A stretch of 64,000 nucleotides of DNA from an uncultured Candidatus Saccharibacteria bacterium (GTDB lineage: Bacteria; Patescibacteriota; Saccharimonadia; Saccharimonadales; Saccharimonadaceae): the NCBI GenBank assembly GCA_947303945.1, contig CAMYZS010000004.1, positions 1 to 64,000 of the forward strand, given 5' to 3'. Positions 6,273 to 47,100 of the stretch are shown in pieces (position 1 is the first letter of the stretch; each line of letters opens with the position of its first letter). Made by a program: the position numbers and the translations under genes. Below the pieces are notes generated by a model. It was not told the DNA's origin. It made no database searches and worked only from the letters and a program-made list of their open reading frames with translations.

Positions 6273-6869
6273 TCAATCTCCGAGATAACCTTCCAGATCC
6301 TGAAGGTCGGCTTCCGAGAAATCGAACCTCTCCCTAAGAGTAGCCTGGACGAATGCTTTTGGGCGTGGCAGACCGCGCAGCTCTGACCAAGCTTTGAAGA
6401 TATCTTTTACGATATCTTTGTTATTCGCAGCATATTTAGAGATGTAGCATGCGACATAACGCACGCCGTCACAGTCTGGCCGATTACATAAGACAAGCGA
6501 CCAGCCATTGTCGTAGCGGACATACTCTTCGTAGTGATCCCATCTATACGAGTAGCGCTGTCTGATGAGGAGATCTCTGTAATTTTTCCTGTGCCGGACG
6601 CGAGTCGCTTTCGGAAAACCAAGTAGCCACGCCAGGCAATCAATCTTCCCGTTCGGGAGTTTGGCGTGTCCTATTTGAGGAATGCCGCCCCAACAGTTTA
6701 CCCATACGGGTTCACCTTCGCTAACATTCTCCAATACGACAGGCCCACCACGTTTCCAGAACACTTTTAGCACTCTCTTCTCTGGATTATATAAGTACGT
6801 TGTGTCTACAGAATTGCCGACTTTCGCTGGTGTACCTTTCGTGTCTTTTACAAATATAATCTGCTTCAT
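6273..6869 (-). CDS. Hypothetical protein, 198 aa
   Basis: Unrecognised soluble protein rich in Arg, Trp and Tyr. The N-terminal third is predicted beta (KQIIFVKDTKGTPAKVGNSV and VFWKRGGPVVLENVSEGEPVWV); the middle contains a basic RHRKNYRDLLIRQRYSYRW stretch that could bind nucleic acid, and the end is helical and acidic. I prefer ATG at 6869 because the in-frame ATG at 6881 directly touches the purine-rich AGAGAGG site. It has its own promoter (7072-7100), an unusually long leader of about 190 nt, and a terminator at 6205-6230. Confidence 0.65.
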   Translation of the reverse strand: MKQIIFVKDTKGTPAKVGNSVDTTYLYNPEKRVLKVFWKRGGPVVLENVSEGEPVWVNCWGGIPQIGHAKLPNGKIDCLAWLLGFPKATRVRHRKNYRDLLIRQRYSYRWDHYEEYVRYDNGWSLVLCNRPDCDGVRYVACYISKYAANNKDIVKDIFKAWSELRGLPRPKAFVQATLRERFDFSEADLQDLEGYLGD

Positions 6870-6954
6870 CGAACGTCTCATCCTCTCTTTCTACCAAATC
6901 TAGGCTAGTGAATTGGATCAATCTCGACCCTAAAGTCCTGCTCGTTTTTGAGCC

Positions 6955-6980
6955 GGCTCAGAACCCCCTCACTCTGAGCC
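6955..6980 (-). promoter_or_regulatory. Hairpin in the leader of the 6273-6869 gene
   Basis: GGCTCAGA (6955-6962) pairs perfectly with TCTGAGCC (6973-6980) over a ten-base loop. It lies about 90 nt upstream of the start codon, inside the transcript predicted from the promoter at 7072-7100. No T run follows on the minus strand, so it is not a simple terminator. Function unknown. Confidence 0.45.
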
Positions 6981-7071
6981 GACCCAAAATAGACAAAAAG
7001 AGATTTTTCTTCGGAGATAACTTACTAATGTTCTATAAGGTCTTTATATCATTCTCGACCACATAGCGCAT

Positions 7072-7100
7072 ATTGTAGTATATTTATATAAGGCAGTCAA
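7072..7100 (-). promoter_or_regulatory. Promoter TTGACT-17-TACAAT
   Basis: On the minus strand TTGACT (7095-7100) and TACAAT (7072-7077) are 17 bp apart. Transcription would start near 7065 and run through the hairpin at 6955-6980 into the 6273-6869 gene. The rest of the 6900-7324 interval holds only this promoter and two terminators; I see no gene in it. Confidence 0.65.
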
Positions 7101-7173
7101 TAATGCTATAATCTACTATTGAATTTGCAATATAGCTAGTGGAGGCTTTGTTATATAATTTCAGATATAAAAA

Positions 7174-7193
7174 ATCCCGCACGAATGTGCGGG
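7174..7193 (-). terminator. Second terminator downstream of the nicotinamidase-like gene
   Basis: CCCGCAC and GTGCGGG with a GAAT loop; on the minus strand the stem is followed by ATTTTTT. Confidence 0.75.
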
Positions 7194-7241
7194 ATCTTTG
7201 CTACTCGAGAACCCTCTAGTTAGGCCGGCGGTTTTTGAGTG

Positions 7242-7275
7242 CAAAAAGCTCCGAATTAATAATTCGGAGCTTTTT
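7242..7275. terminator. Bidirectional terminator after the nicotinamidase-like gene
   Basis: A long palindrome (AAAAAGCTCCGAATTA and its complement) is centred near 7258 with A and T tracts on either side. Confidence 0.85.
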
Positions 7276-9642: not shown

Positions 9643-12600
9643 CTATTCTAATACCCAAGGACTATTTTCACTTCCGTCGCCATCCGAAATGATGGTTCCA
9701 GGAATAATTGAAATAACAGGACGCACTGAACCGTAAGAGATATTCACATCGGCATAACCAGTGCGCGTATTCCAAACAAGATTTAGCGCATTATTTTGGT
9801 GGAATGAGTACGGAGTCATTGACCACGAAGAACTATTGCCGTTATATAGGTAAGTATTGTCACTATAGCCATTTATGCCATGTCCAGCCAAAGTAAGTTC
9901 GTCTTCGGTTAGGAGCCCAACTGGGTAGATAAGCTTACCGTTACCATTTGCCGCGCTGACAGTAAAAGCGTCATTAGATGGACAATCGAATGATGGATGG
10001 TTGCTGTTACCTATCGCGGCAAAGTAAGCACCGCCATTAGTCTTACCGCCATTCGCATTCCAGCCACCAACATTATATGGCCAAAAGTTGCGATTGTTGC
10101 AGTATTGAACGTCCTCGATCTTATCTGTATATCCCACAAGAGTATGAGCATACCAGGCATCAATTGCGCTTTTGACTAAGGAATTAGTTCTATTCTCTTT
10201 CATTGCCGCAAGCACAGCATCAATACTATCTACGCCATTTGAAAGTGTAATATAGAATGCATTACTGGTGCCAGTATAGTAGTAAATGTAACGTACTTGC
10301 GTGCAGCTAGTTTGACCAAAGGTTGGACAAACGTAGTGATGGGTAGAAATGTCCGTCATATTGTTATAACTTTCAAGACCCTTAGTGTTGTTGAGGGTAT
10401 AACTCGTCCCGTTCCATGTTACGCTTGCGCCGAAGATAATATTATGCGTATAACTGTAAGATGTTGCGGTATATTCGGTAACCATACGGAGATTGCTAGA
10501 TGTGCAAGTAGTAGACGTGTCGCCACAGGTATACTTATATTCAGAATAATTGCTCGGATTCTGAGATAATTGATAGAGCTTCACGGTTGTGGTATCTGTA
10601 AGTCCAAGGTCACTATGAGATTTCGCGATTGTGAGTGTAGAACTTACTGGAATATAGTTATAATAAAATGCGAAACTATCCTGGATATACTGCGGATTAC
10701 TACAAGTAGTGTTAGTATTATTGCCGCAAGTAAACATTCCTTTGGCTTCGGAATATCTTGAACCCCATTCGCTCCTCTTCATAGTGAAAGGATTGTTCAG
10801 TGTATAGGTTCCATTACCATTATTTATGACACTGTCACCAATCATATAACTAGTGTCCACATCTGATAAGGTTTGGCCATCTTGCATTTCGAGATAATAC
10901 ATCGCAGAGCCATCCACGCCAGCAATGTAGTAAATGACATTATTATGATAGTCGCTCTGACTGGCGCGAAAAGTATATTTACCGAGCAGGCTAGCATAAT
11001 CCGAAGCGGAGCTTACCTGATATGGATTAGTAAGACTATATTTATCCGCCACATCGGTACCGTAGGTCATACCATTGGCATAATAGAAGTCGGTACTCAG
11101 TGAGGTGCTTTGGAGAACGGCCGCTTCCGTTATAAAGCCATAAGTCGAGGAAATGGTCATTTCGTCACGAGGATAAACATCGCCATACATATAGCCAACA
11201 TAAGCCATAGAATCTTTTTCTGCGTTAAATTGCATTTTTCCGATTGCCCAATATGCCGTAGAAGAATTCAGTGGCAAGGCGTAGGCAGAATTGTCGTTTT
11301 GTTTAGATTCTATATAATACAGTGTCGAGCAAGAGGCGTTTTCATTGGCGCTCTTACAAGTGTATTTGCCGACGAGCGAATCGCTAGTAGTAGCATCCCA
11401 TCTGGCAAGATACTTTATACCCGACAGAGTGAAAGTCTTAGCGCTTTCGTTGTATGTATAGTCGGTGCCGTAGTAATAGTTATTGGAAAGATTCTGTGAG
11501 GATCTGCCACCGAAGCCATCATGCGCACTGCGGGAAGCGCCGCATTGATTACTGTTATCTGCCTTTCCGTTGTATACCAGTTTTACGCCGCCAGTATTTG
11601 TGGTACGCATAGCTTTCCAACAGATATCGGCAAAAAGCACGTTATTATCCGCAACTGCACCGCGGAAATAATGAACTGGATATTCATCGTTAGCGGTCGA
11701 GGCGACAGTGTTCGCCCCATCGCCATTTGTCGCAGACGAGGCCTGACCAAAGTTGATGTCACTATCTATATTATAGTTGCCATCTGAGCCCTGCATAAGA
11801 GACCTCTTAGCCATTTCTTTATAAAGAGTTTTGGCAGTATAGATTGATCCTTCCATGCTCTTATTTAAGTCCACCTTTGTCCAGGTTGCACCGAGCGTAA
11901 CGCTTTTACTTGGCATGCGGAAGTAATCGTCATTAAGTCTAGTGACTTGATCTTCGACAATGTCGTAACCAGCGAAATTATACCCACTACAGGTCGGCAC
12001 GATATCCGTAATCTCGACAGCGGTATAGACAAAATGCGCTTCCGGCTCTGGTATGCCCGACACTTCACAATCGCTCGGAGCATTCGCAGCATATGTGACT
12101 ATGAAGTCGGTCTTGAGGATAGGTGTGGATTCGGTCGTTACATTCTCACTGGCAGTATTATAGAGAGAAGACTTTACGGAGGCGCTTCGATTAGTTGGGA
12201 AAAGTGCTGGCGTAGTGATATATTCGGGTTTTAAGTTGATATCTATCTCCATGCGAGCGCGTGCCCCAGAGCGAAGCTTTTCACTCATATCCCATGTAAT
12301 TTTTGGAGTGGTTCCATCATAATCTAATGATGCCGTACCCCTATTTACACGAATCGCATCGGAGCCAGAGATCGTAAAGAACTCGTCATTTATATGATCC
12401 GTAAGGACAAACTCATCATATCCATATGGGGCAATCGATGCGTCAATAATCACATCAGTAAGATTATCTCCGTCTGCCACAAATTGATAATCTGAGATGG
12501 AAGCCAGGTTATTATTGACAGAATCGCCCATCTCATATTGAATAGCGTTGACAGTGACGAAGGGGTACTTATTTTTAATGAGCCAATATTCAGCAATCTG

Positions 12601-15084
12601 ATAGAGGAGTTCTTCGTTTGGGGCGCCATCGGTAAGGAATACAATAATGGTGTTTCTCCCCTCCGACTCCGTATAGCTATCCAACAAACGCTCCGCACCG
12701 TTTAAGCCCTGATAATAGTTAGTCTTACTACTGTCGGCAGAAATGTCGGAAATCTTAGACAGTAAAAGATCACGATCATTGGTAAAGCCCGTCTCAATGT
12801 AATATCCGTGACTAAAAGTGACGAGGGCTAAATTATTATCTCCTTCGTCCAAAAATGCGTTTGTAAAACTAGTTAATGAGTCTTTTAGAATTGGTAGCCT
12901 GTCGCTATCCATCGACTTACCGTTATCTACTACAAGTATCACATCATTATCTTCATCCTGAGACTTCAACAATGACTCGACGTCAACAATAATCCTAGCC
13001 GTACTGCTGCTAGTCCAACCAGCCATCTTATTTACCTTCCAGGCGCCAGGTTCGCCACTAGCAAAGCTTGTGTGTTGAGATGTTAATTCTATTGAGGGGA
13101 TTGGCTCGGTGGGCACAGCAAAAACCCTACTAATTAAAAGGATAGAGAACGACGACGCTACAATAATAGCGGATACACGAAGTGCGCGACGAGGTGTCCT
13201 AGAGAGACTACGAGGACAGAGGCTTCTTTCTTTTTTGCCGTCCGCTTTCCTAAATATTACATATATACCAATGCAGCATATAGCCATCGCAATAATCGTA
13301 ATATAGGGACCAACATTGCCCATAAGTACTCCAGTTAGGACTGGAATATCTTGCCAACTTTTCGTATTAAAGCTTACGGAGTCGGTATAATCTTTCGTCG
13401 TGTCGATGTTATAGTTTGCCTCGGATGCCGTAGCGCCAACTATAGCAACAGTATTGATAATCTCCGCAGTTTCATCATTAGTGACCGTATACTGTGCTTT
13501 TAGAGTGATACTTTCATTGGCAGCAAGCGTTGGAATAGATACTAAGCGATTTTCGGTAAGAGTATAGCCAGCACCAGTTAAGAATACGGTACCGTCGAGT
13601 TGATCAAGCACCCTCACGTCGGTGATAGAAAAGTCTGCCGTGTTAGTTACGATAATATCAAAATCCACGACCTGATTAACATGATAGCTATCTTGTTGAT
13701 TAGGAATACTAATGGTAATGGTTGGCGAGAAAACCCCTTCCTGGATTGACCATTCGCCATAAATTACGAGGTTCTTTGCTGGCATAACAAAAGATGGCTC
13801 ACTATACCAACCGGTGAAGCGATACCCCTCTGCGCTCGGATTAGCCGCAAGCGTCACGACGGCCCCAACGGGGTAGCTTGCTGGTGCTGGCAGTAGCGAA
13901 GGCGCGTTCGGTGGCAAAACAGAACCCTCAAAAGCATAGGTAACGGTGTAAGTCTGACGAGTAAAGCTACCCGTAATAGTAACATTGCCTTCGGGCATAA
14001 TAAAACTGCCATCGGTTATAGATACATCATTAGACGTCCAGCCAGAGAAGATATAGTCATCAATCACGGCATTTTCTTGAGTCGAATCTACACTAACAAC
14101 TTCGCCAGCTTCATATGTTTTTTCCTTTGGAACGATATAGCCTGCAGGAGCATCACTGTTTACCTCATAAGTAACAGTATATTTTGTGGTAGTTTGCTTT
14201 TCGACAAAAACGCCCACAAAATTAACGTTATTACCTGGCATAGAAAATACGCCACCACTAACAGTAGCGTCAGACGTCGTCCATCCAGAGAACTCGTAGC
14301 CGTCGAGAGACGGCTCCATCGCTACATTAACGGTTGAGTTCTGAGTATACGATTGACTGCTCGGTAGTGCAGGAGCGTTTTCTGGCACATCGCCAGTATA
14401 GCTATAAGTAACATTATATATAAGAGCTGTATCTTTACCCATCCAAACATGAACCATGTTTGAATCCTTACTAATAAGACCCTCGCTGACTCTGCCGGTA
14501 TTATAGAAGTCCATACGTTCCACATCGCCAAGAGCTGGGGTTTTCGTAATGATACCTACCGTCAAATTGCAGCCAGCCTGGACGTCTGTTGTCTTAAATT
14601 TCACCGTCCGGCTGGCGGAGTAGTAATGCAACCCATGATAAGTATACTCTGTATGAGCCGCATTCCATGAACCCGTTTCGACAGACTCGTTGCCCGTGTC
14701 GTCAATTACGTGACCAGGGCAAGAAACAGTACTATCGCTACGCTCTATTGCGCCTATGTGCCCCGTATCTGTCGTCTTAAACCCAATAAAATCGAGGCCG
14801 TCAGGGATATGGTCGACAACTTCAGTTATCCCACTTCTGATATTTGCGGTAGTCGTATCGGTAGATTCAACGCCATACTTATCTACGCCGTCGTATTTGA
14901 CGGTAAGATAATATGTTAGCTCAGATTCCTCCTCGACACGAGTGCCATTTTCGATAGGTTCCGCCACGACGGCCCAATAGCTTGTAGCAATTGCAATAAA
15001 GGTAAAGACTAGGGCAAAAGCTATACCTATTACGCATAGGAAGTGCCTACTTATTCTACCTCTGCTTGCATGAGTCGACTGCAT
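9643..15084 (-). CDS. Giant surface polyprotein 1 (InlB-type repeats, sorting signal, VWA, lectin-like C terminus)
   Basis: An 1813-residue protein built like two fused preproteins. Residues 20-42 are a signal/anchor span, followed by an ectodomain with InlB-type B repeats (GYEFSGWTT, DYIFSGWTS, GYRFTGWYS; about 220-445) and a DUF11-like module (450-575). It ends in a sorting-signal-like unit: IPVLTG (580-585), a membrane span (590-611) and a basic tail. A second signal-like span (634-656, ending VFA) starts the second half: a VWA domain (713-900) whose MIDAS reads DNGKS (720-724) instead of DxSxS, another InlB-type repeat, Cys-paired repeats and a C-terminal domain ending SYGSVRPVISI. Start: ATG at 15084 after GGAG; the TTG at 15105 lacks a site. 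It carries the shared surface-gene promoter element (15115-15144). Likely an adhesin. Confidence 0.85.
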   Translation of the reverse strand: MQSTHASRGRISRHFLCVIGIAFALVFTFIAIATSYWAVVAEPIENGTRVEEESELTYYLTVKYDGVDKYGVESTDTTTANIRSGITEVVDHIPDGLDFIGFKTTDTGHIGAIERSDSTVSCPGHVIDDTGNESVETGSWNAAHTEYTYHGLHYYSASRTVKFKTTDVQAGCNLTVGIITKTPALGDVERMDFYNTGRVSEGLISKDSNMVHVWMGKDTALIYNVTYSYTGDVPENAPALPSSQSYTQNSTVNVAMEPSLDGYEFSGWTTSDATVSGGVFSMPGNNVNFVGVFVEKQTTTKYTVTYEVNSDAPAGYIVPKEKTYEAGEVVSVDSTQENAVIDDYIFSGWTSNDVSITDGSFIMPEGNVTITGSFTRQTYTVTYAFEGSVLPPNAPSLLPAPASYPVGAVVTLAANPSAEGYRFTGWYSEPSFVMPAKNLVIYGEWSIQEGVFSPTITISIPNQQDSYHVNQVVDFDIIVTNTADFSITDVRVLDQLDGTVFLTGAGYTLTENRLVSIPTLAANESITLKAQYTVTNDETAEIINTVAIVGATASEANYNIDTTKDYTDSVSFNTKSWQDIPVLTGVLMGNVGPYITIIAMAICCIGIYVIFRKADGKKERSLCPRSLSRTPRRALRVSAIIVASSFSILLISRVFAVPTEPIPSIELTSQHTSFASGEPGAWKVNKMAGWTSSSTARIIVDVESLLKSQDEDNDVILVVDNGKSMDSDRLPILKDSLTSFTNAFLDEGDNNLALVTFSHGYYIETGFTNDRDLLLSKISDISADSSKTNYYQGLNGAERLLDSYTESEGRNTIIVFLTDGAPNEELLYQIAEYWLIKNKYPFVTVNAIQYEMGDSVNNNLASISDYQFVADGDNLTDVIIDASIAPYGYDEFVLTDHINDEFFTISGSDAIRVNRGTASLDYDGTTPKITWDMSEKLRSGARARMEIDINLKPEYITTPALFPTNRSASVKSSLYNTASENVTTESTPILKTDFIVTYAANAPSDCEVSGIPEPEAHFVYTAVEITDIVPTCSGYNFAGYDIVEDQVTRLNDDYFRMPSKSVTLGATWTKVDLNKSMEGSIYTAKTLYKEMAKRSLMQGSDGNYNIDSDINFGQASSATNGDGANTVASTANDEYPVHYFRGAVADNNVLFADICWKAMRTTNTGGVKLVYNGKADNSNQCGASRSAHDGFGGRSSQNLSNNYYYGTDYTYNESAKTFTLSGIKYLARWDATTSDSLVGKYTCKSANENASCSTLYYIESKQNDNSAYALPLNSSTAYWAIGKMQFNAEKDSMAYVGYMYGDVYPRDEMTISSTYGFITEAAVLQSTSLSTDFYYANGMTYGTDVADKYSLTNPYQVSSASDYASLLGKYTFRASQSDYHNNVIYYIAGVDGSAMYYLEMQDGQTLSDVDTSYMIGDSVINNGNGTYTLNNPFTMKRSEWGSRYSEAKGMFTCGNNTNTTCSNPQYIQDSFAFYYNYIPVSSTLTIAKSHSDLGLTDTTTVKLYQLSQNPSNYSEYKYTCGDTSTTCTSSNLRMVTEYTATSYSYTHNIIFGASVTWNGTSYTLNNTKGLESYNNMTDISTHHYVCPTFGQTSCTQVRYIYYYTGTSNAFYITLSNGVDSIDAVLAAMKENRTNSLVKSAIDAWYAHTLVGYTDKIEDVQYCNNRNFWPYNVGGWNANGGKTNGGAYFAAIGNSNHPSFDCPSNDAFTVSAANGNGKLIYPVGLLTEDELTLAGHGINGYSDNTYLYNGNSSSWSMTPYSFHQNNALNLVWNTRTGYADVNISYGSVRPVISIIPGTIISDGDGSENSPWVLE

Positions 15085-15114
15085 TGATTCTCCAACAAAA
15101 AGCAATTAGTAATC

Positions 15115-22000: not shown

Positions 22001-23266
22001 CTATTTGAATGATTCTTTTAATAAACTTGACTTTTTTAAACTATCATTCGAGAGAAAAGTAACTTTTTTAATTTCCGACTCGGTCAAAGAAATAGTTTTT
22101 TGTTGATGGTCAAAAATAATATCAACCTCCGCTTTTTGACCAGATGTATTCATGATAATAACCTCATAAGCAAATTGGGTTCTTCTAGCTACCGCCATTA
22201 ACTCCTCAGAATTATAATCACAACGAACAACTAAGCTACCCGCTGGAAACATTTTGACAAACTTTTTTAACGCTTCATAAATCGGGGTGAGGATAAAACC
22301 ATCCTCAGTTCCTGTTAGGATAATTGGGCTTTTGACATAATTGCCACAGTAGTTGGGGCCACCCTGCTCTGAAAGTAAGATATTCCAGTCCAACCAAGCG
22401 TTTGAGCCAGAATTGATGTCTGCAAAAAGCTCACGACAATAAAGCTTTGCAGCATATTTCCAGTCTTGCTCATCATAGGGGGACTTATAGCCACAGCACA
22501 TTTCAGAACTAATCATTAGAATATCTGGGTATTTTTGTCGAACTTGCCACATTTGGTCTGGATGCGTGCCGTCATACCAATGGAAGCAAATGCCAGCGAT
22601 TTTTTTATTTGCTTCGCATTTTTTAGTAACGAGACGCTTTGCAACGTCAGTAAGGTACTTCTTGTTATGGTCCCAGAGTAGTATTTGCACATCCATATCT
22701 CTAAGCTCAGCAGCTAGATATCTATATGCGAGTTTCTTTTGCGAGCGATAGGAATAAATACACGATTCCCAAGGTTGAATGACGCAGGGTTCATTCTGAG
22801 GAGTAATATAATTGATTATTACTCCTTCGTCAGCATAAGCCTCGAGCCATTTGTGAATGTATCTAGCATAGCGCCCGTAGTGCCAAAAGCTCAGACGTTG
22901 GCCACGAGAAGCTTTGAGGCAGCTTGGCGGCGACCAAGGGCTAGCGATAAATTGGAGTTTTTTCTTGGCAAGGATTTTTCGCAACATCGGTAAGACCCAC
23001 TTCTGATCATGATTGATAGAGAAATCACTTAGGTTGGTCTTTTTTGTATATTCATAAGGTTTTAAACAAAAATCATTACTGCCAATACTGACACGCGCCC
23101 AGCGGTAATCTAGACCATCTTTGCTATAATAAGCATTAATAAGCTCTTGCTGTTTTTTTGGAGATAATTTTGCAAAATTATAAGCGGCCGCTTCCGTAAT
23201 GGCGCCACCTATGCCCTGCCAAAAACCAATTTCAATATCTTTTCTGACGGTTATTGTTATTGCCAT
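22001..23266 (-). CDS. Glycoside hydrolase family 30-like enzyme
   Basis: A 421-residue (beta/alpha)8 glycosidase of the GH30 (glucosylceramidase/xylanase-like) group. Recognisable are GIGGAITEAAAYNFAKLS near the N terminus, SPWSPPSCLK, the acid/base Glu in YITPQNEP, GICFHWYDG, and the probable nucleophile Glu in LMISSEMCCGY, followed by a small C-terminal beta domain. It cleaves beta-linked sugars; the substrate is not clear. There is no signal peptide, which is odd for a family usually secreted, so the enzyme appears cytoplasmic. A TATAAT (23277-23282) lies ten bases before the ATG, so the mRNA would have almost no leader. It follows the sortase gene by 66 bp. Confidence 0.8.
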   Translation of the reverse strand: MAITITVRKDIEIGFWQGIGGAITEAAAYNFAKLSPKKQQELINAYYSKDGLDYRWARVSIGSNDFCLKPYEYTKKTNLSDFSINHDQKWVLPMLRKILAKKKLQFIASPWSPPSCLKASRGQRLSFWHYGRYARYIHKWLEAYADEGVIINYITPQNEPCVIQPWESCIYSYRSQKKLAYRYLAAELRDMDVQILLWDHNKKYLTDVAKRLVTKKCEANKKIAGICFHWYDGTHPDQMWQVRQKYPDILMISSEMCCGYKSPYDEQDWKYAAKLYCRELFADINSGSNAWLDWNILLSEQGGPNYCGNYVKSPIILTGTEDGFILTPIYEALKKFVKMFPAGSLVVRCDYNSEELMAVARRTQFAYEVIIMNTSGQKAEVDIIFDHQQKTISLTESEIKKVTFLSNDSLKKSSLLKESFK

Positions 23267-23332: not shown

Positions 23333-24079
23333 CTAATCGCGCGGGACCATTTTAGCAAGGAGTACATTGCGATAATGCTTAGAGTCTTTATCGCAGGTTG
23401 AGAGGACGATGATTTTGTCGTCGTCTTCGTATTTAACTTTGCGCGATTGTTTCGCAAACGAATGCACCTCATGAATCACCGTACCGTTACGATTATTGCG
23501 ATTATTATCATGGTTATAAATAGTAGTGCGATCAACGTCTACGATTGAGAAATCGGATATTTCTAAGTCATAGATGCCGTCCTCAGTATAGAGGACGCCG
23601 CTCTTATGCTTGTCGAAATACTCCTCTTGCTCGAAGAGCGAAATACCACCAAACATACGCTGCCCATCCATGCGGTGTCCATAAACCATCGAGAAGTCAT
23701 CTTTAAAGCCATCATTGCGATAGTCTAAAAAGATACTTCCAGCCGTGGCAAACTCGCCGCGGTAATTCCTCGTTAAATACTTAGTATTATTATTTGCCTG
23801 AACCACTGGATAATTGATATTCGTATTATTGATCTTAATCCAGGCAATAATATCAGGGTTAATCTTTTTTAATTCAGCAAGATCAATATCTACATCCGCG
23901 TCAGGCGATAAGCTTGCAATTTCCTCGTCCATCTTGGCACTAATATTGACTGCATGAATATCTAATAGAGCATAGAAGCCAATTAGAAAAATAAGTAAGA
24001 AAATTGCGGTTGATAATAAATCTACTATTCGTTCGATGTATGATCGAACATTTTCTGCAATACTTTTATTTTTCTTCAT
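23333..24079 (-). CDS. Class B-type sortase
   Basis: A 248-residue membrane-anchored transpeptidase that cuts sorting signals and joins the protein to an amino group on another pilin subunit or cell wall. One N-terminal span (about 21-40) is followed by the catalytic domain with the class B pattern WIKINNTNINYPVVQ, GSIFLDYRN, His135 (VYGHRMDG), Cys229 (LSTCD) and Arg237 (YRNVLLAK). It starts two bases after the stop of the signal-peptidase-like gene, indicating translational coupling. With the pilin and the Lys-less signal peptidase homologue it matches the content of class B sortase pilus loci of streptococci (FCT type). Substrates are probably the local proteins ending in P-x-TG-like motifs. 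Confidence 0.9.
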   Translation of the reverse strand: MKKNKSIAENVRSYIERIVDLLSTAIFLLIFLIGFYALLDIHAVNISAKMDEEIASLSPDADVDIDLAELKKINPDIIAWIKINNTNINYPVVQANNNTKYLTRNYRGEFATAGSIFLDYRNDGFKDDFSMVYGHRMDGQRMFGGISLFEQEEYFDKHKSGVLYTEDGIYDLEISDFSIVDVDRTTIYNHDNNRNNRNGTVIHEVHSFAKQSRKVKYEDDDKIIVLSTCDKDSKHYRNVLLAKMVPRD

Positions 24080-24081
24080 GG

Positions 24082-24597
24082 CTAAATTGACCTTGTGCGG
24101 AAAATGCTCACGATTTTCCCCTTTATGTTTGTTTCAAAAATCGAACCAAAACTGCGCGAGTCGTCCATTGCTTCGAGATTCTCATTAATCAGGAAGTAAC
24201 TCCCAGTTGGGACACGGAACGGAAAAGTGATAGAAGGTGTCTCTCCTTGATCCAAGTTATAAACAGGGCTATCGTAGACCCGCGTGCCATTGACATATAG
24301 GCAACCTTTTTCGTCTATGGTGATCAAATCACCTGGAGAGGCAAGTATCGACGATACGTGCGTTTCGTTGTCGCGCTCAAACAACACGACATCGTCTGGA
24401 TAATATGTCTTATCCGTACGGGAGAATAGGACGAGATCGCCGTCCTCTACGCGATTCGACATAGATACACCTTCTACCCGCTGAAAACCAATTAATACAC
24501 CGAACAGCAACCAAAGCACGAAGGCTAATATCGCTATCTTTATAACCAGACGAATCCAGCTTTGATGCTTCTTAATTAGGGTTTTCATTCCGTTCAT
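24082..24597 (-). CDS. Signal peptidase I homologue lacking the catalytic Lys (SipA-like)
   Basis: A 171-residue S26-family protein with one N-terminal span (about 16-36). Box B is present with the Ser nucleophile at 45 (VEGVSMSNRVEDGDLVLF) and box E is present (DDSRSFGSI). In box D, where active enzymes read VKRVIGLPGD, this protein reads VSSILASPGD: the general-base Lys is Ser82. It lies between the pilin (27 bp upstream) and the sortase (2 bp downstream). In Streptococcus pyogenes the signal-peptidase-like SipA/LepA of the pilus locus also lacks a normal dyad and is needed for pilus assembly; a similar non-proteolytic role is inferred. An ER-type Ser-His dyad using His80 cannot be excluded. 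Confidence 0.8.
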   Translation of the reverse strand: MNGMKTLIKKHQSWIRLVIKIAILAFVLWLLFGVLIGFQRVEGVSMSNRVEDGDLVLFSRTDKTYYPDDVVLFERDNETHVSSILASPGDLITIDEKGCLYVNGTRVYDSPVYNLDQGETPSITFPFRVPTGSYFLINENLEAMDDSRSFGSIFETNIKGKIVSIFRTRSI

Positions 24598-24624
24598 GAT
24601 AAATATGTTCGATATTTAAGCTTA

Positions 24625-25722
24625 TTACTGTTCTTCGTTGTCCCGTTTGCGACGACCGATAATGAAGAAGAAGCCGAAGAGGCCAGCAATGAGAAGCATG
24701 ACATAGAACCAGAAGTTGGTGATAATACCAGTTAATGGATCAGTATTCTTATTGTTTTCGAGCGTAATAGTATTGTCTTGACTGAAACAGCCATTAGCAT
24801 CACCACAAGTATTGTCGTCTGCGGCGGCAGCCGTCTTGGAAATATTATCTTGAATAGTACCACCCATTTTAGTGGTATAGCCATCATTACCGTTAATATC
24901 GGTAATGGTGTAGCTAGCACCAACAGGAAGTTGATATGAACCACCATTGTAGCCAACGCGAACAGTATCGCCTTCTTTGAGGTAGACAGTAGCCGGAGTG
25001 CCAGCAGCCACGCTCGAGGCACTACCAGAACAGCCATTAGCTGGATTAATATCGATGGCGTAAGTACCGCCCGCCGTGATGCCGCTATTTGGGATCGAGA
25101 TCTCATAAGCGAAACATTCGCTGGTTTCTGCCATGTTGCCAGTAGTGGTAGCGGTGGCTTGGATGTAGGTGTAGCTTGAACCACTAGTCCAAGTAGCCTC
25201 AGTAACCTTGGTGCCACCATTGTTCTCAATAATTACAACAGCGGTATAACGAGAATTGTCTGGTACGTTAGTACTTTGGTTGACATAGTAACGCACTTGG
25301 ACGATTGCTTTGTAGCTATTATTAATAGTGTCGATTGGATAGTTCGCTAAATCGGACGAGCTGTTTTCCGTGATAGTAAACTCGTAGTCGCCGACTTTGG
25401 AATAGTTGGCGGCGGAAAAGTTTACGGTCGTAGTAGCTTGTACGGAGCCACTAGTTGGCGTAGCGTTGCTGAATGCAATACTAGCAGAGCTTGGCACACC
25501 GGACACAGTGCCACCAGTTGGCGCCGATGTATTAGTAATGGAGTAGCCAAAAGTATTGGTTACTGGGTTTGTAACATTGGTTACGGTGCGACGTAGTGTA
25601 ATAGGATTACCCGAGTAATCTCCATTTGCTACCGTATTGGCGAATACGCCAGCCGCTGGAAGAATTGCCGTAAGTGCTAGAGCGATAGCAGTTACGCCAG
25701 CGGTAAATGAAATTTTTTTCAT
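24625..25722 (-). CDS. Sortase-dependent pilin, FctA/Spy0128-like
   Basis: A 365-residue secreted protein that is the best candidate for a polymerising shaft pilin. It has a classical signal peptide (cleavage near VFA-NT, residue 28). The first domain (about 35-175) resembles the streptococcal pilin isopeptide domain, with FGYSITN, the F-x-x-x-x-Y strand pattern and GDYEFTITE carrying the conserved Glu. The second (about 190-325) resembles DUF7601-type domains (VYLKEGDTVRV, YQLPVGASYTITD) and has paired Cys. It ends DPLTGI, a membrane span and the basic RRKRDNEEQ tail, a sorting signal. Start: ATG after AAGGGAG. It heads the pilin/SipA-like/sortase operon and carries the shared promoter element (25910-25962). 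Confidence 0.85.
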   Translation of the reverse strand: MKKISFTAGVTAIALALTAILPAAGVFANTVANGDYSGNPITLRRTVTNVTNPVTNTFGYSITNTSAPTGGTVSGVPSSASIAFSNATPTSGSVQATTTVNFSAANYSKVGDYEFTITENSSSDLANYPIDTINNSYKAIVQVRYYVNQSTNVPDNSRYTAVVIIENNGGTKVTEATWTSGSSYTYIQATATTTGNMAETSECFAYEISIPNSGITAGGTYAIDINPANGCSGSASSVAAGTPATVYLKEGDTVRVGYNGGSYQLPVGASYTITDINGNDGYTTKMGGTIQDNISKTAAAADDNTCGDANGCFSQDNTITLENNKNTDPLTGIITNFWFYVMLLIAGLFGFFFIIGRRKRDNEEQ

Positions 25723-25909
25723 TTCTCCCTTTCTTTTATTTTTTTACTTGCTCATATGTCACAACGCTCAGCTACCTTGCCTTATCGCCGAGAAAGGCAA
25801 AAGCGTAAACTCAATTTAATAATTAAGATAAGACGTTGCGAGTTTTATTAATATCGGTCATATGGAGGACCATTAAACCGAATACTCCCAAAAAATGGGT
25901 TAAACTAAT

Positions 25910-25962
25910 AACTCTCACAAACCACTTATGATTACTATAAAGCATAAATGGTGTTATGTAAA
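25910..25962 (-). promoter_or_regulatory. Surface-gene promoter element, copy A (pilin)
   Basis: On the minus strand: TTTACA (25957-25962), 17 bp, TATAGT (25934-25939), six bases, then AAGTGGTTTGTGAGAGTT (25910-25927), which would be the first bases of the transcript. The pilin ATG lies about 190 nt further on, so the mRNA has a long leader. The remainder of 25723-26041 holds this leader and the 3' flank of the 26042 gene; I see no gene in it. Confidence 0.75.
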
Positions 25963-26018
25963 GTTTTCTTTCGATAATTAATGTAAAGGTTGCTAAAGTT
26001 GTTCTGGTTTTGTACTCT

Positions 26019-26871
26019 TACTCACATTAATAAATAGTTTTCTATTCCTTATCCTCCTCCTTTCCGCAATAAGCTACAACAGCTCCCGCCAGACCAATAG
26101 CTCCAATAGCTAGAAGAAAGGCATACAGTAGTGTTGTAGCTTGAGAAATATTGATGCCAGTAAGTACTGGGACATCTTGCCAGCTTTGAGTATTGAAGGT
26201 AGTGCTGGCGGTATAGCTTTGGTTTGGATCAAGGAAATAATAGTTATTAGCACTGGCGGCAGTAATCTCAACAGTATTAGTACGACCAGTCTGAGTGACA
26301 TCATCGGTGATTGGATATTCGGCAGTCAACGTAATGCTGCTGTTAGCTGGAATTGTAGCAATGGTCGCAATATCGCCCGTGTTGGAAACGGTGTAATTGG
26401 GACTGATAACGAAAGTGGCACCAAGTAGATTCTCCTTTACCTCAACGTTGGTAATTGGGAAGCTAGCAGTGTTTGTGACTGTAATTTGAAACTGGACCGT
26501 ATCGCCGAAGCGATAAATGGTTTGCGGATTAATAACTTGTTTTGCTAAAGTCGGAGCGAAGTAGCCGTTAAACTGTTCCCAGCTACCAGTGACAACAACG
26601 TCACTGGTAGGCATAGTGAAACTGGCACCAGCTGGAGAGCCATTTATCTGCCAGCCCAGAAAACGGTAGCCTGCAGCGGTAGGGCCTTGAGCAACCGTAA
26701 CGGTTGTGCCGACTTCATGCTCGGCCGTGGCCGGCAAAAGAGTGCTAGCATTCGGCGGCTGAACAGAGCCAGTGAATTGATAGATAACGTCATGATATTT
26801 AGGATGATAGACGTAAGTTACTTCTATATCCTGATTAATAGTGCCCGTGGCTTGGCCGATGGTGATTTCTG
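26019..26871. repeat. Direct repeat, copy 1 (853 bp)
   Basis: Identical to 27990-28842 wherever I compared it; it covers the 3' end of adhesin A, coding for its last 278 residues and 23 bp past the stop. Homology outside is absent at the 3' side and weaker at the 5' side. Confidence 0.85.
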
Positions 26872-27769
26872 GGATGTAGCGATTATTAGAGATTGGACTA
26901 GCAGTATAAGTGTCGCCACAAGTGTAAGACGTAGTCGTATCGGCGGCAAAGATTGTATTATCTTCGTTGAGGTGGTGGATAGTAAGATTGCAAGTAGTAG
27001 CCTGAAGGGTGTTTGTAAATATTGCGGTCGAGCCTGTGGCGTTGCTATAAGTGCCGTAATAAGCTGCTGAAATATTAGCATTGCGGTTAATACCTACGGT
27101 CACATTATTACTCCTTACGCTTACGGTAATATTGGAGTCGTATGTATTATTGCCATAGAACGCATTACTGGAAGTAACATTAATTGTCGTGCCAATTTTT
27201 GCACTGATAGCCTGATTAAAAGAAGCTAATTGCGTTGCATTCAGCATCTCTCTGGTGTATAGATAATAGGTTCCATTTTTATTATAGAGGAAATATGAAA
27301 TTCTGCCCAAGTTCGTGGAGGCATTATTCTGATAAATCGAGCTAGCGGCTATCGTATAGGTATCGATGCTGGCATTGTTAGATACCGATATAGTAGACGG
27401 TTCACCAATTATATAATCGCTAAAGTTATCTTGGGAGACGACATAGGTAAAGTTGCTATTGTATGAAATACCACTGAACGTTCCTACCCATTTGTTGGGA
27501 TTATTTGGATCTTGATTAGACGCCGTTAAAGTGAGAGTACTCAAAATAGAGTTATTGTTAGTTCTTCGGAGACGCAAAATAACTTGCGTTGGCCTAGTAC
27601 CCGCGCTAACGCCTTGATCGTCCCAATTAATTTCAACAGGAATGCTGAAAGTTGCCGCGAAAGCCACATTAAGGATTAAAAGCGCCGTCGCTAGGATGAT
27701 TATAAAAACAAAGAATAATCTTGCGAGCGCTTTCCTTATGTCGGCTTTCACGGTTCTCGTGAAAACCAT
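26042..27769 (-). CDS. Cell-surface adhesin A (Cna-B, MucBP, InlB-type repeat, sorting signal)
   Basis: A 575-residue secreted protein. After a signal peptide (about 1-38) comes a Cna-B-like domain (IPVEINWDDQ to NFTYVVSQDNF), a variable region, a MucBP-like domain (TIHHLNEDNTIFAADT to EVTYVYHPKY), an InlB-type repeat (GYRFLGWQI) and a DUF11-like module. It ends SWQDVPVLTG, a membrane span and GKEEDKE, a sorting signal. The last 278 residues are identical to those of adhesin B and are encoded by identical DNA; the N-terminal half is only similar. Start: ATG at 27769 with AGGAG. The shared promoter element lies at 27800-27852. Probable role: binding of host cell or mucin-like glycans, anchored by the local sortase. 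Confidence 0.85.
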   Translation of the reverse strand: MVFTRTVKADIRKALARLFFVFIIILATALLILNVAFAATFSIPVEINWDDQGVSAGTRPTQVILRLRRTNNNSILSTLTLTASNQDPNNPNKWVGTFSGISYNSNFTYVVSQDNFSDYIIGEPSTISVSNNASIDTYTIAASSIYQNNASTNLGRISYFLYNKNGTYYLYTREMLNATQLASFNQAISAKIGTTINVTSSNAFYGNNTYDSNITVSVRSNNVTVGINRNANISAAYYGTYSNATGSTAIFTNTLQATTCNLTIHHLNEDNTIFAADTTTSYTCGDTYTASPISNNRYIPEITIGQATGTINQDIEVTYVYHPKYHDVIYQFTGSVQPPNASTLLPATAEHEVGTTVTVAQGPTAAGYRFLGWQINGSPAGASFTMPTSDVVVTGSWEQFNGYFAPTLAKQVINPQTIYRFGDTVQFQITVTNTASFPITNVEVKENLLGATFVISPNYTVSNTGDIATIATIPANSSITLTAEYPITDDVTQTGRTNTVEITAASANNYYFLDPNQSYTASTTFNTQSWQDVPVLTGINISQATTLLYAFLLAIGAIGLAGAVVAYCGKEEDKE

Positions 27770-27799
27770 ATCACTCCTAAAAACTTAGGTTACTTTAGC

Positions 27800-27852
27800 A
27801 ACTCTCACAAACCACTTAGGCTTATAATATAGCATCAGCTGCATCCTGTAAA
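27800..27852 (-). promoter_or_regulatory. Surface-gene promoter element, copy B (adhesin A)
   Basis: On the minus strand: TTTACA (27847-27852), 17 bp, TATTAT (27824-27829), six bases, AAGTGGTTTGTGAGAGTT (27800-27817). The start codon of adhesin A follows about 30 nt downstream. Confidence 0.75.
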
Positions 27853-27989
27853 GTCTCCACCCCGAGCGGTTTTGTTGGATGCTGCAAAAATTTATGCCCA
27901 TATTGTTCTTAGGCGTATCAAAAATATTGCATTTGTTTTTGAAGAAAGAATTAAAAAGTTACCGATGTTACCTAGTATGTTTGGTCTTA

Positions 27990-28842
27990 TACTCACATTA
28001 ATAAATAGTTTTCTATTCCTTATCCTCCTCCTTTCCGCAATAAGCTACAACAGCTCCCGCCAGACCAATAGCTCCAATAGCTAGAAGAAAGGCATACAGT
28101 AGTGTTGTAGCTTGAGAAATATTGATGCCAGTAAGTACTGGGACATCTTGCCAGCTTTGAGTATTGAAGGTAGTGCTGGCGGTATAGCTTTGGTTTGGAT
28201 CAAGGAAATAATAGTTATTAGCACTGGCGGCAGTAATCTCAACAGTATTAGTACGACCAGTCTGAGTGACATCATCGGTGATTGGATATTCGGCAGTCAA
28301 CGTAATGCTGCTGTTAGCTGGAATTGTAGCAATGGTCGCAATATCGCCCGTGTTGGAAACGGTGTAATTGGGACTGATAACGAAAGTGGCACCAAGTAGA
28401 TTCTCCTTTACCTCAACGTTGGTAATTGGGAAGCTAGCAGTGTTTGTGACTGTAATTTGAAACTGGACCGTATCGCCGAAGCGATAAATGGTTTGCGGAT
28501 TAATAACTTGTTTTGCTAAAGTCGGAGCGAAGTAGCCGTTAAACTGTTCCCAGCTACCAGTGACAACAACGTCACTGGTAGGCATAGTGAAACTGGCACC
28601 AGCTGGAGAGCCATTTATCTGCCAGCCCAGAAAACGGTAGCCTGCAGCGGTAGGGCCTTGAGCAACCGTAACGGTTGTGCCGACTTCATGCTCGGCCGTG
28701 GCCGGCAAAAGAGTGCTAGCATTCGGCGGCTGAACAGAGCCAGTGAATTGATAGATAACGTCATGATATTTAGGATGATAGACGTAAGTTACTTCTATAT
28801 CCTGATTAATAGTGCCCGTGGCTTGGCCGATGGTGATTTCTG
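27990..28842. repeat. Direct repeat, copy 2 (853 bp)
   Basis: Identical to 26019-26871 at a constant offset of 1971 bp. It covers the 3' end of adhesin B. Confidence 0.85.
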
Positions 28843-29749
28843 AGGTGTAGCGATTATTAGAGATTGGACTAGCAGCATAAGTGTCGCCACTATTGTAGGT
28901 AGTTACTACGTCGGCGGCAAAAGTTGTGTTATCTTCATTAAGATGATGAACAGTAAGGGTAAATGTTGAGTTTCGGACGTTCGTAAAGGAGACGACACCA
29001 CTAGTGGCTGGCACAATCTCACCATAGTAATAAGATCTAAAGCGATTACCTAATAATGTTGTGCCCGAATGGGAGAACGATACGTTATTATTAGACTGAC
29101 TAAGGGTAACAGATTCATTAAAGATAATCCCATCGTAGATAGAGAAAGTAGTGGGGAGAGTTGTTGTATAGTTTGAATTATTAAGCGTAAAGCTTGAACC
29201 GACCATCGCATAAAGGGCTGACAAGAGCTGGCTGTAGTCAGTACCAGCATAGGAGTCTCTGGTCCAGAGATAATACGAGTTGCTGCTAACAATGAGTACA
29301 AAATCGGTCGCGCCCAGATTATTCGAGGAAGTACTGGTAACATTTTGAGTATTTGACACGGCAATATTATGGTCAATGTTAGGTGCGATGTTATTTGCAA
29401 TAATGCCGTAGTTATTAACATTATCTTCGACGATTGTATAGTTCGAACTTTCTGGTACGGATGCAAAAACACCAACCCACTTATCGCTATCTGACGGATC
29501 AGCGTCGGATGCGGTGAGAGTGATATTCGACACCTCCGTACTCCCATCCATCAGGCGTAGCGTTACGCTACTTGGCCTATAGTTAGAGCCTTGATCGGTC
29601 CAATTTACCTCGACTGGGATGTCCATCGCAGTACGAGCAAAAGCCGCATTAATAATGATTGACGCTAACACGAAAACAATCGCGATGGCGAAAATAGACT
29701 TCGCGAGAGTCCTTTTAATGCTGGCTTTTACGGATCTTGTAAAAACCAC
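28013..29749 (-). CDS. Cell-surface adhesin B (Cna-B, MucBP, InlB-type repeat, sorting signal)
   Basis: A 578-residue paralogue of adhesin A with the same order: signal peptide (about 1-37), Cna-B-like domain (IPVEVNWTDQ to NYTIVEDNV), variable region, MucBP-like domain, InlB-type repeat, DUF11-like module, VPVLTG, membrane span and acidic-basic tail. The start is set at GTG 29749, giving MVFTRS as in the MVFTRT start of adhesin A, with GGGAG five bases upstream. The N-terminal halves differ through substitutions and indels while the C-terminal 278 residues are identical, a mosaic typical of gene conversion. The shared promoter element lies at 29780-29808. Confidence 0.85.
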   Translation of the reverse strand: MVFTRSVKASIKRTLAKSIFAIAIVFVLASIIINAAFARTAMDIPVEVNWTDQGSNYRPSSVTLRLMDGSTEVSNITLTASDADPSDSDKWVGVFASVPESSNYTIVEDNVNNYGIIANNIAPNIDHNIAVSNTQNVTSTSSNNLGATDFVLIVSSNSYYLWTRDSYAGTDYSQLLSALYAMVGSSFTLNNSNYTTTLPTTFSIYDGIIFNESVTLSQSNNNVSFSHSGTTLLGNRFRSYYYGEIVPATSGVVSFTNVRNSTFTLTVHHLNEDNTTFAADVVTTYNSGDTYAASPISNNRYTSEITIGQATGTINQDIEVTYVYHPKYHDVIYQFTGSVQPPNASTLLPATAEHEVGTTVTVAQGPTAAGYRFLGWQINGSPAGASFTMPTSDVVVTGSWEQFNGYFAPTLAKQVINPQTIYRFGDTVQFQITVTNTASFPITNVEVKENLLGATFVISPNYTVSNTGDIATIATIPANSSITLTAEYPITDDVTQTGRTNTVEITAASANNYYFLDPNQSYTASTTFNTQSWQDVPVLTGINISQATTLLYAFLLAIGAIGLAGAVVAYCGKEEDKE

Positions 29750-29779
29750 ACTTACTCCCAAAAATTAGGTTACATCAGT

Positions 29780-29808
29780 AACTCTCACAAACCACTGGCT
29801 TTAGTATA
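29780..29808 (-). promoter_or_regulatory. Surface-gene promoter element, copy C (adhesin B)
   Basis: On the minus strand: TATACT (29803-29808), six bases, then AGTGGTTTGTGAGAGTT (29780-29796). The -35 region is poor (TTTTAA). Confidence 0.75.
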
Positions 29809-44151: not shown

Positions 44152-47100
44152 CTATGCTCCCGTATACCATGTCGGCAGTGGAACAGTGTCTGGGATATTA
44201 TCAAATGCGCCAGTTTTGGAAACTATACTAGCAGTGTCCCAATCATCAAGTGGGCTAAAGGTTGTAACGCTAGATGCGTTTTTAAATATATTATTAATAT
44301 TTGTTACTTTGGAAGTATTCCAGCCAGCAATTGCTTCAACGGAAGTGAGTCTAGATACACCCTGGAACATTGATGACATATCTAATACATTTGAAACGTC
44401 CCATTTTTCGGCACCGCTAATATCCACAAGATTATAGGCATTATAAAACATCCAGCTCATGTTTGTAACTTTTGAGGTATCCCAGTTCGTCATGCCCGTT
44501 ATATCCGTCAGGTTTGTAGCGTAATAAAACATAGAATTCATATCCACCACATTGCCAGTGTTCCAATTTGATATACTATTTACATCAACTAGACTCCTAG
44601 CATTAAAGAACATTTCGTTCATCTTGGTGACATTAGAAGTATTCCAGCTGCTAGCGCCGCTTATATCTGCAAGGTTATTGGTTCCATAAAACATACTACT
44701 CATATTCGTTACGTTGGCGGTATTCCAATTTGACGCACCGTTTATATTAGCGAGGCTGGACGCATTATGAAACATGCCGCCCATATTCGTTACATTGGCA
44801 GTATTCCAATTAACTAGCGCGTCAATATCAGGTAAACTAGATGCACCATTAAACATATTACCCATGTCGGTTACATTTGCCGTGACCCAACTAGAGATCC
44901 CATTAATATCTGCAAGGCTGGTAGCTACATAGAACATATAACTCATATCAGTTACATTTGCCGTATCCCAATTCGTTAACGCATCTAGGCTGGCAATTTT
45001 AGTGGCACCAAATACCCATTTCATGTTTGTCACTTTGGATGTGTCCCAACCGGAGACTCCATCTATATCGACAAGCTTATTGGCGCTATAAAATAGATAG
45101 CTCATATTCGTAACGTTAGACACATCCCAACTTGCAAGTGCATCTACATTCGTCATTCTTGTGCCCTGAAGTGTACCACTCATACTTGTCACCTTTGAGG
45201 TATCCCAGTTAGCAAGTATGTCAATATTGGTAATCGGTGCATTGCGAAACATACTATTCATATCTGTTACGCTAGATGTATCCCAATTAGCTACGCCGTC
45301 AATACTTGTGAGATTGGAGGCGCCATAAAACATAAATCCCATGGTCGTCACATTGGCAGTACTCCAATTAACCGCGCCGTCAATGTCAGTAAGGTTAGTA
45401 GCGTTGTTAAACATATAGCTCATATTTGTCACCTTTGCCGTATCCCAATTCGCGAGCGCATCTATATTGGCTATGCTGGTCTCGCGAAACATTGCGGCCA
45501 TATTTGTTACGCTTGAAGTATCCCAATTAGCAAGAGCATCTATGTCAGAAATATTAGTATTACGGAATGCATCATTCATATCTGTAATATTAGAAGTATT
45601 CCAATTGGCAAGTGCTTCAATATTAGTTATTTTAGTAGATCTAAAGATTGAACCGATACTCGTTACTTTTGAAGTATTCCAGCCGGCTAGTGAATCTATA
45701 TCGGCGATATTAGTTTCAAAGAACATACTATCCAATCTTGTAACACTAGATATGTCCCAATTAGCGAGTATAGATATATCAGTGAGGCCGGAGGCGCGAT
45801 TGAACACGTCGCGCATATTTGTCACTTTCGATGTATTCCAATTTGCTAAATCATCAATACTAGTGAGGCTTGTTGCTTCACGAAAAGCGCTATTCATATT
45901 TGTAGTATTTGAAGTATCCCAACTCGCGACTGCCGAGATATTACTCAAAGCCGAGAATGCATAGAATAGGTTACTCATATTCGCATTCCCCTCAATCTTA
46001 TCCGCCTCAGAATAGATATAGATTGAGCCATCAGTATCATCAAACCAAGCGTAGATTGGTACTGGTGAGTTTGTGGCTGAAATAATAGCTGCACTAGCTT
46101 CTTGAACTGGATTCATGCTAGTAGCGGACTTTATAGCAGTAATGGTTGTATTTTGTGTAGTGTGGGTTGCACCGGATTGACCAGACAATTTCTTGAGTGC
46201 TACATTGATGTTTGATCCAGTATTTAGTACTGCGGTTATTTCTTCTTTTACTTCCCCATCCATACTCTTGGAGATGAAAGGCTTAGTCCAAGTAGCGCGT
46301 AGTACTACATCATCCTCCATTAGTTTGAAGTAGTCATCATTAAGGATTCTGGAATCACCCTCAGCAATCTCCCAACCATTAAAGTTGTAGCCACTACAAG
46401 ATAATGTATTATTAGATTTCTGAACTACTGCTAATGGTTGGTAGTCTTGTTCAATTGGAACCGTACCTTCGTAGCTACTACAGTCACTAGGTAGATTAGC
46501 TTCGTAGCTTATTTTGTAGCTAGATTTAAGTACGGGAGTAAGTTCACTCTCTATGTTTTCGTCTAATACTTCTGGGATAGTGGTTTGGATGGTTTCATGA
46601 TCATTAGTTGGTAGGAAGGTGCCTTCTGGGATAGTACTAGCATTCTTAATGGTGACATCTATGGTTAATTGAGCAGTATGGCCAGACATTAAGGCATTAT
46701 TCATTGTCCAGGTTACTACTGGCGTATTGTTGTTGTAGTTTAGGGCTGTCTCGCCAATAGAGGCTTCTACTGCATCTATACTATCTACATCCCAGTATTC
46801 ATCATTGATGTAGTCGGTGAGGGTAAAGTCTTCGTAAGTATACGGAGCGAGACTTGCTTCAAAGAGGACGTCTCTTAGCGTGCTCATGTTAGCAATGAAC
46901 TGGTTGTCTGAGACTTTCTTAATTGGATCGAGGACTTCATCGCCCATTTCGTATTGGATCCCATTAACGACCATATATGGATACTGAGCCTTTAATGCTT
47001 GGTATTCAGCTACTTCATTTGGAGTTTGCTTGTTTGGATAACCGTCGGTAAGGAACAATAGGATAAGTTCACGGTTCTCTTGCTTTTGGTAGCCTTCAAG

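Follow-up and report, generated by a model that had tools for sequence, protein, structure and literature searches.

We analysed a 64,000-nucleotide stretch of DNA (the window) from an uncultured Candidatus Saccharibacteria bacterium and found that a minus-strand locus at positions 23,333 to 29,808 probably gives a rumen Saccharibacterium a covalent pilus that is assembled by sortase and is of the FCT-2/3 or PI-2 kind. The genome, of which the window forms contig 4, comprises 1.29 Mb in 45 contigs and is 99.9% complete. The closest named relatives of its sortase were found in 'Candidatus Saccharibacteria bacterium' genomes from yak rumen (85% identity) and sheep rumen (81%), in agreement with a preliminary description of the DNA that had assigned it to a Saccharibacteria-type genome. 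All five open reading frames (ORFs) that this description had placed on one strand were present, in the transcription order adhesin 2, adhesin 1, pilin, SipA-like protein and class B sortase (Table 1). Its central proposal, that a class B sortase, a dyad-deficient SipA and an FctA pilin form a covalent pilus locus, was supported by the protein families, by invariant catalytic and acceptor residues, by the operon order and by fold comparison, but not with respect to internal isopeptide bonds.

In the proposed mechanism, the pilin would leave the cytoplasm through the Sec system and stay attached to the membrane through its C-terminal tail, whereupon the class B sortase would cut the xPLTG motif between Thr and Gly. 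Thr331 would then be joined to Lys172 of the next pilin to form the shaft. The SipA-like protein, which lacks the Ser-Lys dyad, would assist as a non-catalytic assembly factor, and one of the two adhesins, which bear the same type of signal, would cap the tip. We infer polymerisation, the tip position and attachment to another microbe, a feed particle or an animal, of which the holding of a host cell, as first suggested, may be one form.

Components and distribution of the cassette

The window sortase scored 176.4 bits against TIGR03064 (class B; curated cut-off, 153.75), and its closest PDB chains were class B sortases (4y4q, E 5e-36). His135, Cys229 and Arg237 are as originally assigned, and the columns of the catalytic His, Cys and Arg were invariant across 59-60 sortase relatives. 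Elsewhere in the same genome, contig 7 carries one more class B sortase, and sortases of other classes are found on contigs 19 and 14. At L043:7056-7892, leuS- and rnc-like genes adjoin a class B sortase of this genome, other than that of the window, which exceeds the TIGR03064 cut-off; no pilin accompanies it.

The SipA-like protein scored as signal peptidase I (TIGR02227, E 3.7e-26), and its best PDB matches were SipA/LepA of Streptococcus pyogenes (4n31, 4k8w; E ~1e-19). As had been described, the catalytic Lys is missing; Ser82 stands at its site, and the Lys was absent from all 26 full-length relatives. Judged from these residues, the dyad of the window protein is half lost, Ser45 being present and the Lys gone.

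The pilin combines a signal peptide, a Spy0128-like body of two immunoglobulin-like domains, and a C-terminal xPLTG motif with a hydrophobic stretch and an RRKR tail. A profile of 43 pilin relatives matched T18.1 (E 1.6e-33) and Spy0128 (3b2m residues 13-292, E 3.5e-18) in the PDB, and 7 of the 43 members, the window pilin not among them, matched Pfam FctA. Lys172 aligned with the EGSK loop of Spy0128, which contains K161, known as the residue through which FctA subunits are linked (PMC7900414). This column was invariant in 72 of 72 aligned pilins, a few of them near-copies and some with identity as low as ~25%, and the Thr and Gly of the sorting signal were conserved at 97% and 93%, respectively. 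Foldseek, run with an AlphaFold2 (AF2) model of the pilin, gave eight matches below 0.001, all of them PitB, the PI-2 shaft pilin. Family searches placed the sortase, the SipA-like protein and the pilin within their families, the pilin only through the family profile; the protein is, as proposed, an FctA/Spy0128-like pilin with signal peptide and sorting signal, homologous over the two-domain body.

Both adhesins matched Cna_B, MucBP, Flg_new_2 and DUF11 of Pfam and carry C-terminal VPVLTG signals, consistent with the multi-domain adhesins first described. An adhesin with a matching xPxTG-type signal lies directly upstream in window-type loci, which counts in favor of a pilus; relatives have one adhesin directly before the pilin, and the window has two. 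A repeat search and position-by-position comparison (offset 1971) revealed two mismatch-free copies of an 853-bp stretch, corresponding to the common 3' half of the adhesin genes, while the 5' halves differ. This doubling looks like a recent duplication or conversion that paired a constant stalk with different N-terminal parts, and it makes the two genes candidates for domain shuffling of tip adhesins. Outside the pilus loci, other surface proteins of the genus end in NPKT[LIV]D and a hydrophobic tail (L041:1858-3531, L038:10620-15317, L040:181-915). Two sorting codes, this one and the xPxTG type of the pilus substrates, occur in one genome, and the NPKTxD-type proteins may be served by another sortase.

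Pilin relatives were present in 41 of 45 genomes of the same rumen genus and were weak or rare elsewhere in the family. A search of 380 genomes of the phylum gave six matches, of which five belonged to this genus and the sixth was short and weak. The compared loci come from draft metagenome assemblies. Because the pilin-SipA-sortase cassette recurs in this order in dozens of genomes, the locus is far beyond chance; it is found through most of one rumen genus and almost nowhere else in the phylum. Genomes contain up to several pilus loci, of which the preliminary description covered one; two more pilin loci, C28 and C3, occur in the window's own genome. Type A cassettes (window, C28) have a full SipA, and types B and C (C3) have a short SipA-like ORF or none detected. 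In L094, L096, L097, L138, L140 and L141, SipA and sortase are preceded or flanked by a tandem of two different pilin-like genes; these are perhaps shaft and base subunits. Relatives on plasmids were limited to distant signal peptidases and class B sortases, with no pilin, and a donor of the island was therefore not found. No viral carriage of the pilin or adhesin was found.

Table 1. Features of the pilus locus in the window and of its sister cassettes
Feature	Position	Strand	Evidence or remark
Pilus-specific class B sortase, 248 aa	23333-24079	-	TIGR03064 above cut-off; PDB 4y4q; invariant catalytic residues
Sortase Arg237	23369-23371	-	catalytic
Sortase Cys229	23393-23395	-	catalytic
Sortase His135	23675-23677	-	catalytic
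Sortase Trp80 codon	23840-23842	-	position is TGA in some sister sortases
SipA-like signal-peptidase homologue, 171 aa, presumed assembly factor	24082-24597	-	TIGR02227; PDB SipA/LepA matches
SipA-like Ser82	24352-24354	-	in place of catalytic Lys of dyad
SipA-like Ser45	24463-24465	-	dyad Ser, kept
Probable major pilin, FctA/Spy0128 type, 365 aa	24625-25722	-	family profile vs PDB; Lys172; AF2 and Foldseek
Pilin sorting signal DPLTG	24727-24741	-	then hydrophobic stretch and charged tail
Pilin Cys231	25030-25032	-	domain 2
Pilin Cys203	25114-25116	-	domain 2
Pilin acceptor Lys172	25207-25209	-	aligned with K161 of Spy0128
Pilin isopeptide positions, domain 1: R45/E119/S180			equivalent to K36-N168 set of Spy0128
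Pilin isopeptide positions, domain 2: A191/D275/N323			equivalent to K179, E258, N303 of Spy0128
853-bp stretch, copy 1	26019-26871		repeat search and comparison
Adhesin 1, 575 aa, presumed tip or ancillary subunit	26042-27769	-	Pfam; single-copy orthologue directly before pilin in relatives
Adhesin 1 sorting signal VPVLTG	26156-26173	-	then hydrophobic stretch and charged tail
853-bp stretch, copy 2	27990-28842		repeat search and comparison
Adhesin 2, 582 aa, TTG start as called	28013-29761	-	Pfam; 3' half identical to adhesin 1
Adhesin 2 sorting signal VPVLTG	28127-28144	-	then hydrophobic stretch and charged tail
Sister cassette (G000:C3, ~46.5-48.6 kb)	L039:7513-8589, 6541-7266	-	TGA in pilin and sortase
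Further B/C cassettes	L105, L112, L124, L126, L104, L098, L101, L116		TGA in sortase or SipA, several at conserved Trp columns; no TAA/TAG seen

In-frame TGA codons in sister cassettes

Cassettes of types B and C, including the C3 cassette of the window's own genome, contain TGA codons in frame. Sister cassettes L044-L050 resemble L039 in this respect, and their sortase TGA sites alternate with TGG. When all three stops were read through in the aligned regions, all 26 internal stops were TGA, with no TAA and no TAG. In type A genes there were 123 codons for Trp but not one TGA. In the sortase column that includes window Trp80, Trp was found in 56 sequences and TGA in 5, with no other residue. 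These TGA codons represent five changes on the tree, none of which falls in the group of 21 rows that contains the window sortase together with the majority of type A rows. Two TGA sites were found in SipA, one of which is mostly Trp in relatives and the other Trp, Tyr or Phe. In the sister pilin, the TGA lies ~17 residues behind the predicted signal peptide and is kept in all eight relatives, always followed by A. The ratio of non-synonymous to synonymous substitution rates (dN/dS) of the sequence behind it was 0.06-0.24 where dS was unsaturated, indicating purifying selection.

From these patterns it is likely that the TGA codons of the sister cassettes are decoded as Trp. Because other pilins mostly have Ser or Thr at the pilin TGA column, the case for Trp at that codon is drawn from the sites in sortase and SipA. 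We read TGA in the pilus genes as stop-codon readthrough; a regulatory role is less certain. About evenly balanced is a wider proposal for the genus, in which UGA would be dual, serving as the general stop and being decoded as Trp by the ordinary tRNA-Trp in one subgroup of pilus cassettes, and in which the pilin UGA would be a dose valve whose output is set by the efficiency of readthrough.

Several other explanations of the TGA codons were considered. Selenocysteine was rejected, as no SelB exceeded the cut-off in the genome and the sister residue is Trp. A suppressor tRNA with a UCA anticodon was not seen: a pattern search of 5 genomes, which presupposed a standard T-loop and could overlook an atypical tRNA, gave no shared tRNA-like match, and ARAGORN detected none in the loci on which it was run. 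Only tRNA-Trp(CCA) was found, and its 5-bp anticodon stem is normal. A whole-genome code change was ruled out by the presence of release factor 2 (RF2) in the genome, by the use of TGA as terminator of 63 of 492 long ORFs in sampled loci, and by FtsW/RodA, which had no internal stops in 41 genomes; nor did the other sortases listed. A known UGA-to-Trp change in the phylum belongs to another class (family JAKLIH01; PMC13092985). Pseudogenes were ruled out by the TGA-only stops and dN/dS, and a misbinned foreign contig by the 463-kb contig G245:C1, which holds both a window-type and a TGA-bearing locus. No RNA structure was predicted behind the pilin TGA. An all-ORF BLAST screen with TGA read as Trp was swamped by antisense frames, and its filtered version retained some antisense noise, with no convincing case outside the pilus genes.

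Alternatives to a covalent pilus

Several observations weigh against a covalent pilus, for which the evidence is drawn from gene and protein sequences and a predicted fold. No base pilin bearing a separate housekeeping signal occurs in the operon, and wall anchoring is therefore unexplained. The window pilin alone had no match in Pfam and only partial matches in NCBIfam, so that it is tied to FctA only through the profile of its family. Built from two sequences, the AF2 model is weak (mean pLDDT 62, TM 0.28 to PitB). Finally, neither domain of the window pilin has the Lys-Glu/Asp-Asn isopeptide set. The intramolecular Lys-Asn bonds that had been envisaged for this protein thus fail, their residues being absent from both domains; among the 72 aligned pilins, the full set was found in none for domain 1 and in 18, not including the window pilin, for domain 2. 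By the standard that the preliminary description had set, this result speaks against its proposal. This absence concerns stabilisation of the subunit and not the sortase-made linkage, which is not affected because the acceptor Lys is invariant. Genomes of the candidate phyla radiation (CPR) encode MdbA- and VKOR-like disulfide machinery (PMC6744442). Both the window pilin and the pilins most closely related to it have Cys203 and Cys231 in domain 2, a further pair (306/312) occurs in the window pilin, and a disulfide between Cys203 and Cys231 may take the place of the isopeptide bonds.

The sortase might instead attach each of its substrates, the pilin-like protein and the adhesins, to peptidoglycan as a monomer, without forming a polymer. 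Class B sortases commonly anchor single proteins, and both the lack of a base pilin and the same kind of signal on all three substrates would fit such a role. However, Lys172 is invariant at the FctA acceptor position even in the most divergent pilins, and the locus has kept a homologue of SipA, which is required for pilus polymerisation in S. pyogenes (PMC4049620). We therefore consider monomeric anchoring unlikely. A separate question, which concerns one step and is compatible with a pilus, is whether the product of the middle gene, rather than being a chaperone, is a signal peptidase that is still active on the pilin or adhesins and uses a variant dyad of Ser45 and a different general base. 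The signal peptidase fold and Ser45 are kept, and the Ser is present in 14 of the 26 full-length relatives; in the other 12, however, it is replaced by Ala, Val or Gly, and the Lys is missing from all 26. It follows that catalysis is not what selection keeps, and an active peptidase appears improbable.

Much less probable still is a recently acquired, decaying island of streptococcal type without function in its host. Restriction to essentially one genus of the phylum and the in-frame TGA codons of the sister loci would be expected of such an island, but the genes are full-length in nearly all genomes of the genus, the catalytic columns are invariant, low dN/dS persists even behind the TGA of the sister pilin, and TAA and TAG are absent among the internal stops. 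A sortase-built pilus thus appears to account best for the locus.

Relation to known pili

The locus resembles the FCT-2/FCT-3 pilus of S. pyogenes (Cpa, FctA, SipA/LepA, class B SrtC) in its FctA-type two-domain shaft pilin, in an acceptor Lys on the loop that precedes the final strand of domain 1, and in its xPxTG signals, its class B pilus sortase, its SipA with a deficient dyad and its tip-type adhesin upstream. It differs in its saccharibacterial host, in a pilin without the Lys-Glu-Asn isopeptide set, in the retained Ser of the SipA dyad, and in its gene order, pilin-SipA-sortase with the adhesin(s) directly before and no FctB-like base pilin in the operon. PI-2 of S. pneumoniae and oral streptococci (PitA, SipA, PitB, SrtG1/2) contains PitB, the best fold match of the pilin, and likewise has few components and a SipA-like protein. 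PI-2 pili use SipA, which is required, and dedicated sortases (PMC3178606), whereas here one sortase occurs with two adhesins in tandem. In S. pneumoniae PI-2, pitA is a pseudogene through a premature stop (PMC3178606); in contrast, the TGA-bearing genes described here are sister pilins and sortases under purifying selection.

In the open papers searched, we found no description of a sortase pilus in Saccharibacteria, in line with the initial statement that none had been characterised. Sortases as such are widespread in CPR genomes (family fam000526; PMC6744442), but that report gives the family only, without a pilin-SipA-sortase operon. The type IV pili of Saccharibacteria (TM7x T4P-1/2; PMC12206443) are likewise surface filaments of this bacterial group and are used to bind a host bacterium; their machinery is unrelated to a sortase cassette, and sortase is unmentioned in that paper.

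A GH30-family enzyme adjoins the window sortase (22001-23266, minus strand), and another lies near the sortase in the yak relative (L037:1934-3166); a related endo-1,6-beta-glucanase profile scored far below its cut-off. Two giant surface proteins of ~1820 aa each, with VWA, Flg_new and DUF11, are encoded on the minus strand at 44152-49611 and 9643-15105, and the first also has six stretches of DUF285, a family named after Mycoplasma.

Saccharibacteria that have been cultivated live on other microbes, to which they are attached, and type IV pili are the only filaments shown to serve in this attachment (PMC12206443). If our interpretation is correct, a lineage-specific, multi-copy sortase pilus would provide a second attachment system, covalent in nature, whose genetic basis can be tested, and an FctA-type pilus would exist without the internal isopeptide bonds to which the strength of such pili is attributed. 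The in-frame UGA codons, if confirmed, would represent readthrough that is confined to an operon and occurs naturally in a bacterium that uses the standard code and, if the proposed role of the pilin UGA is true, would give a bacterial pilus controlled by a stop codon.
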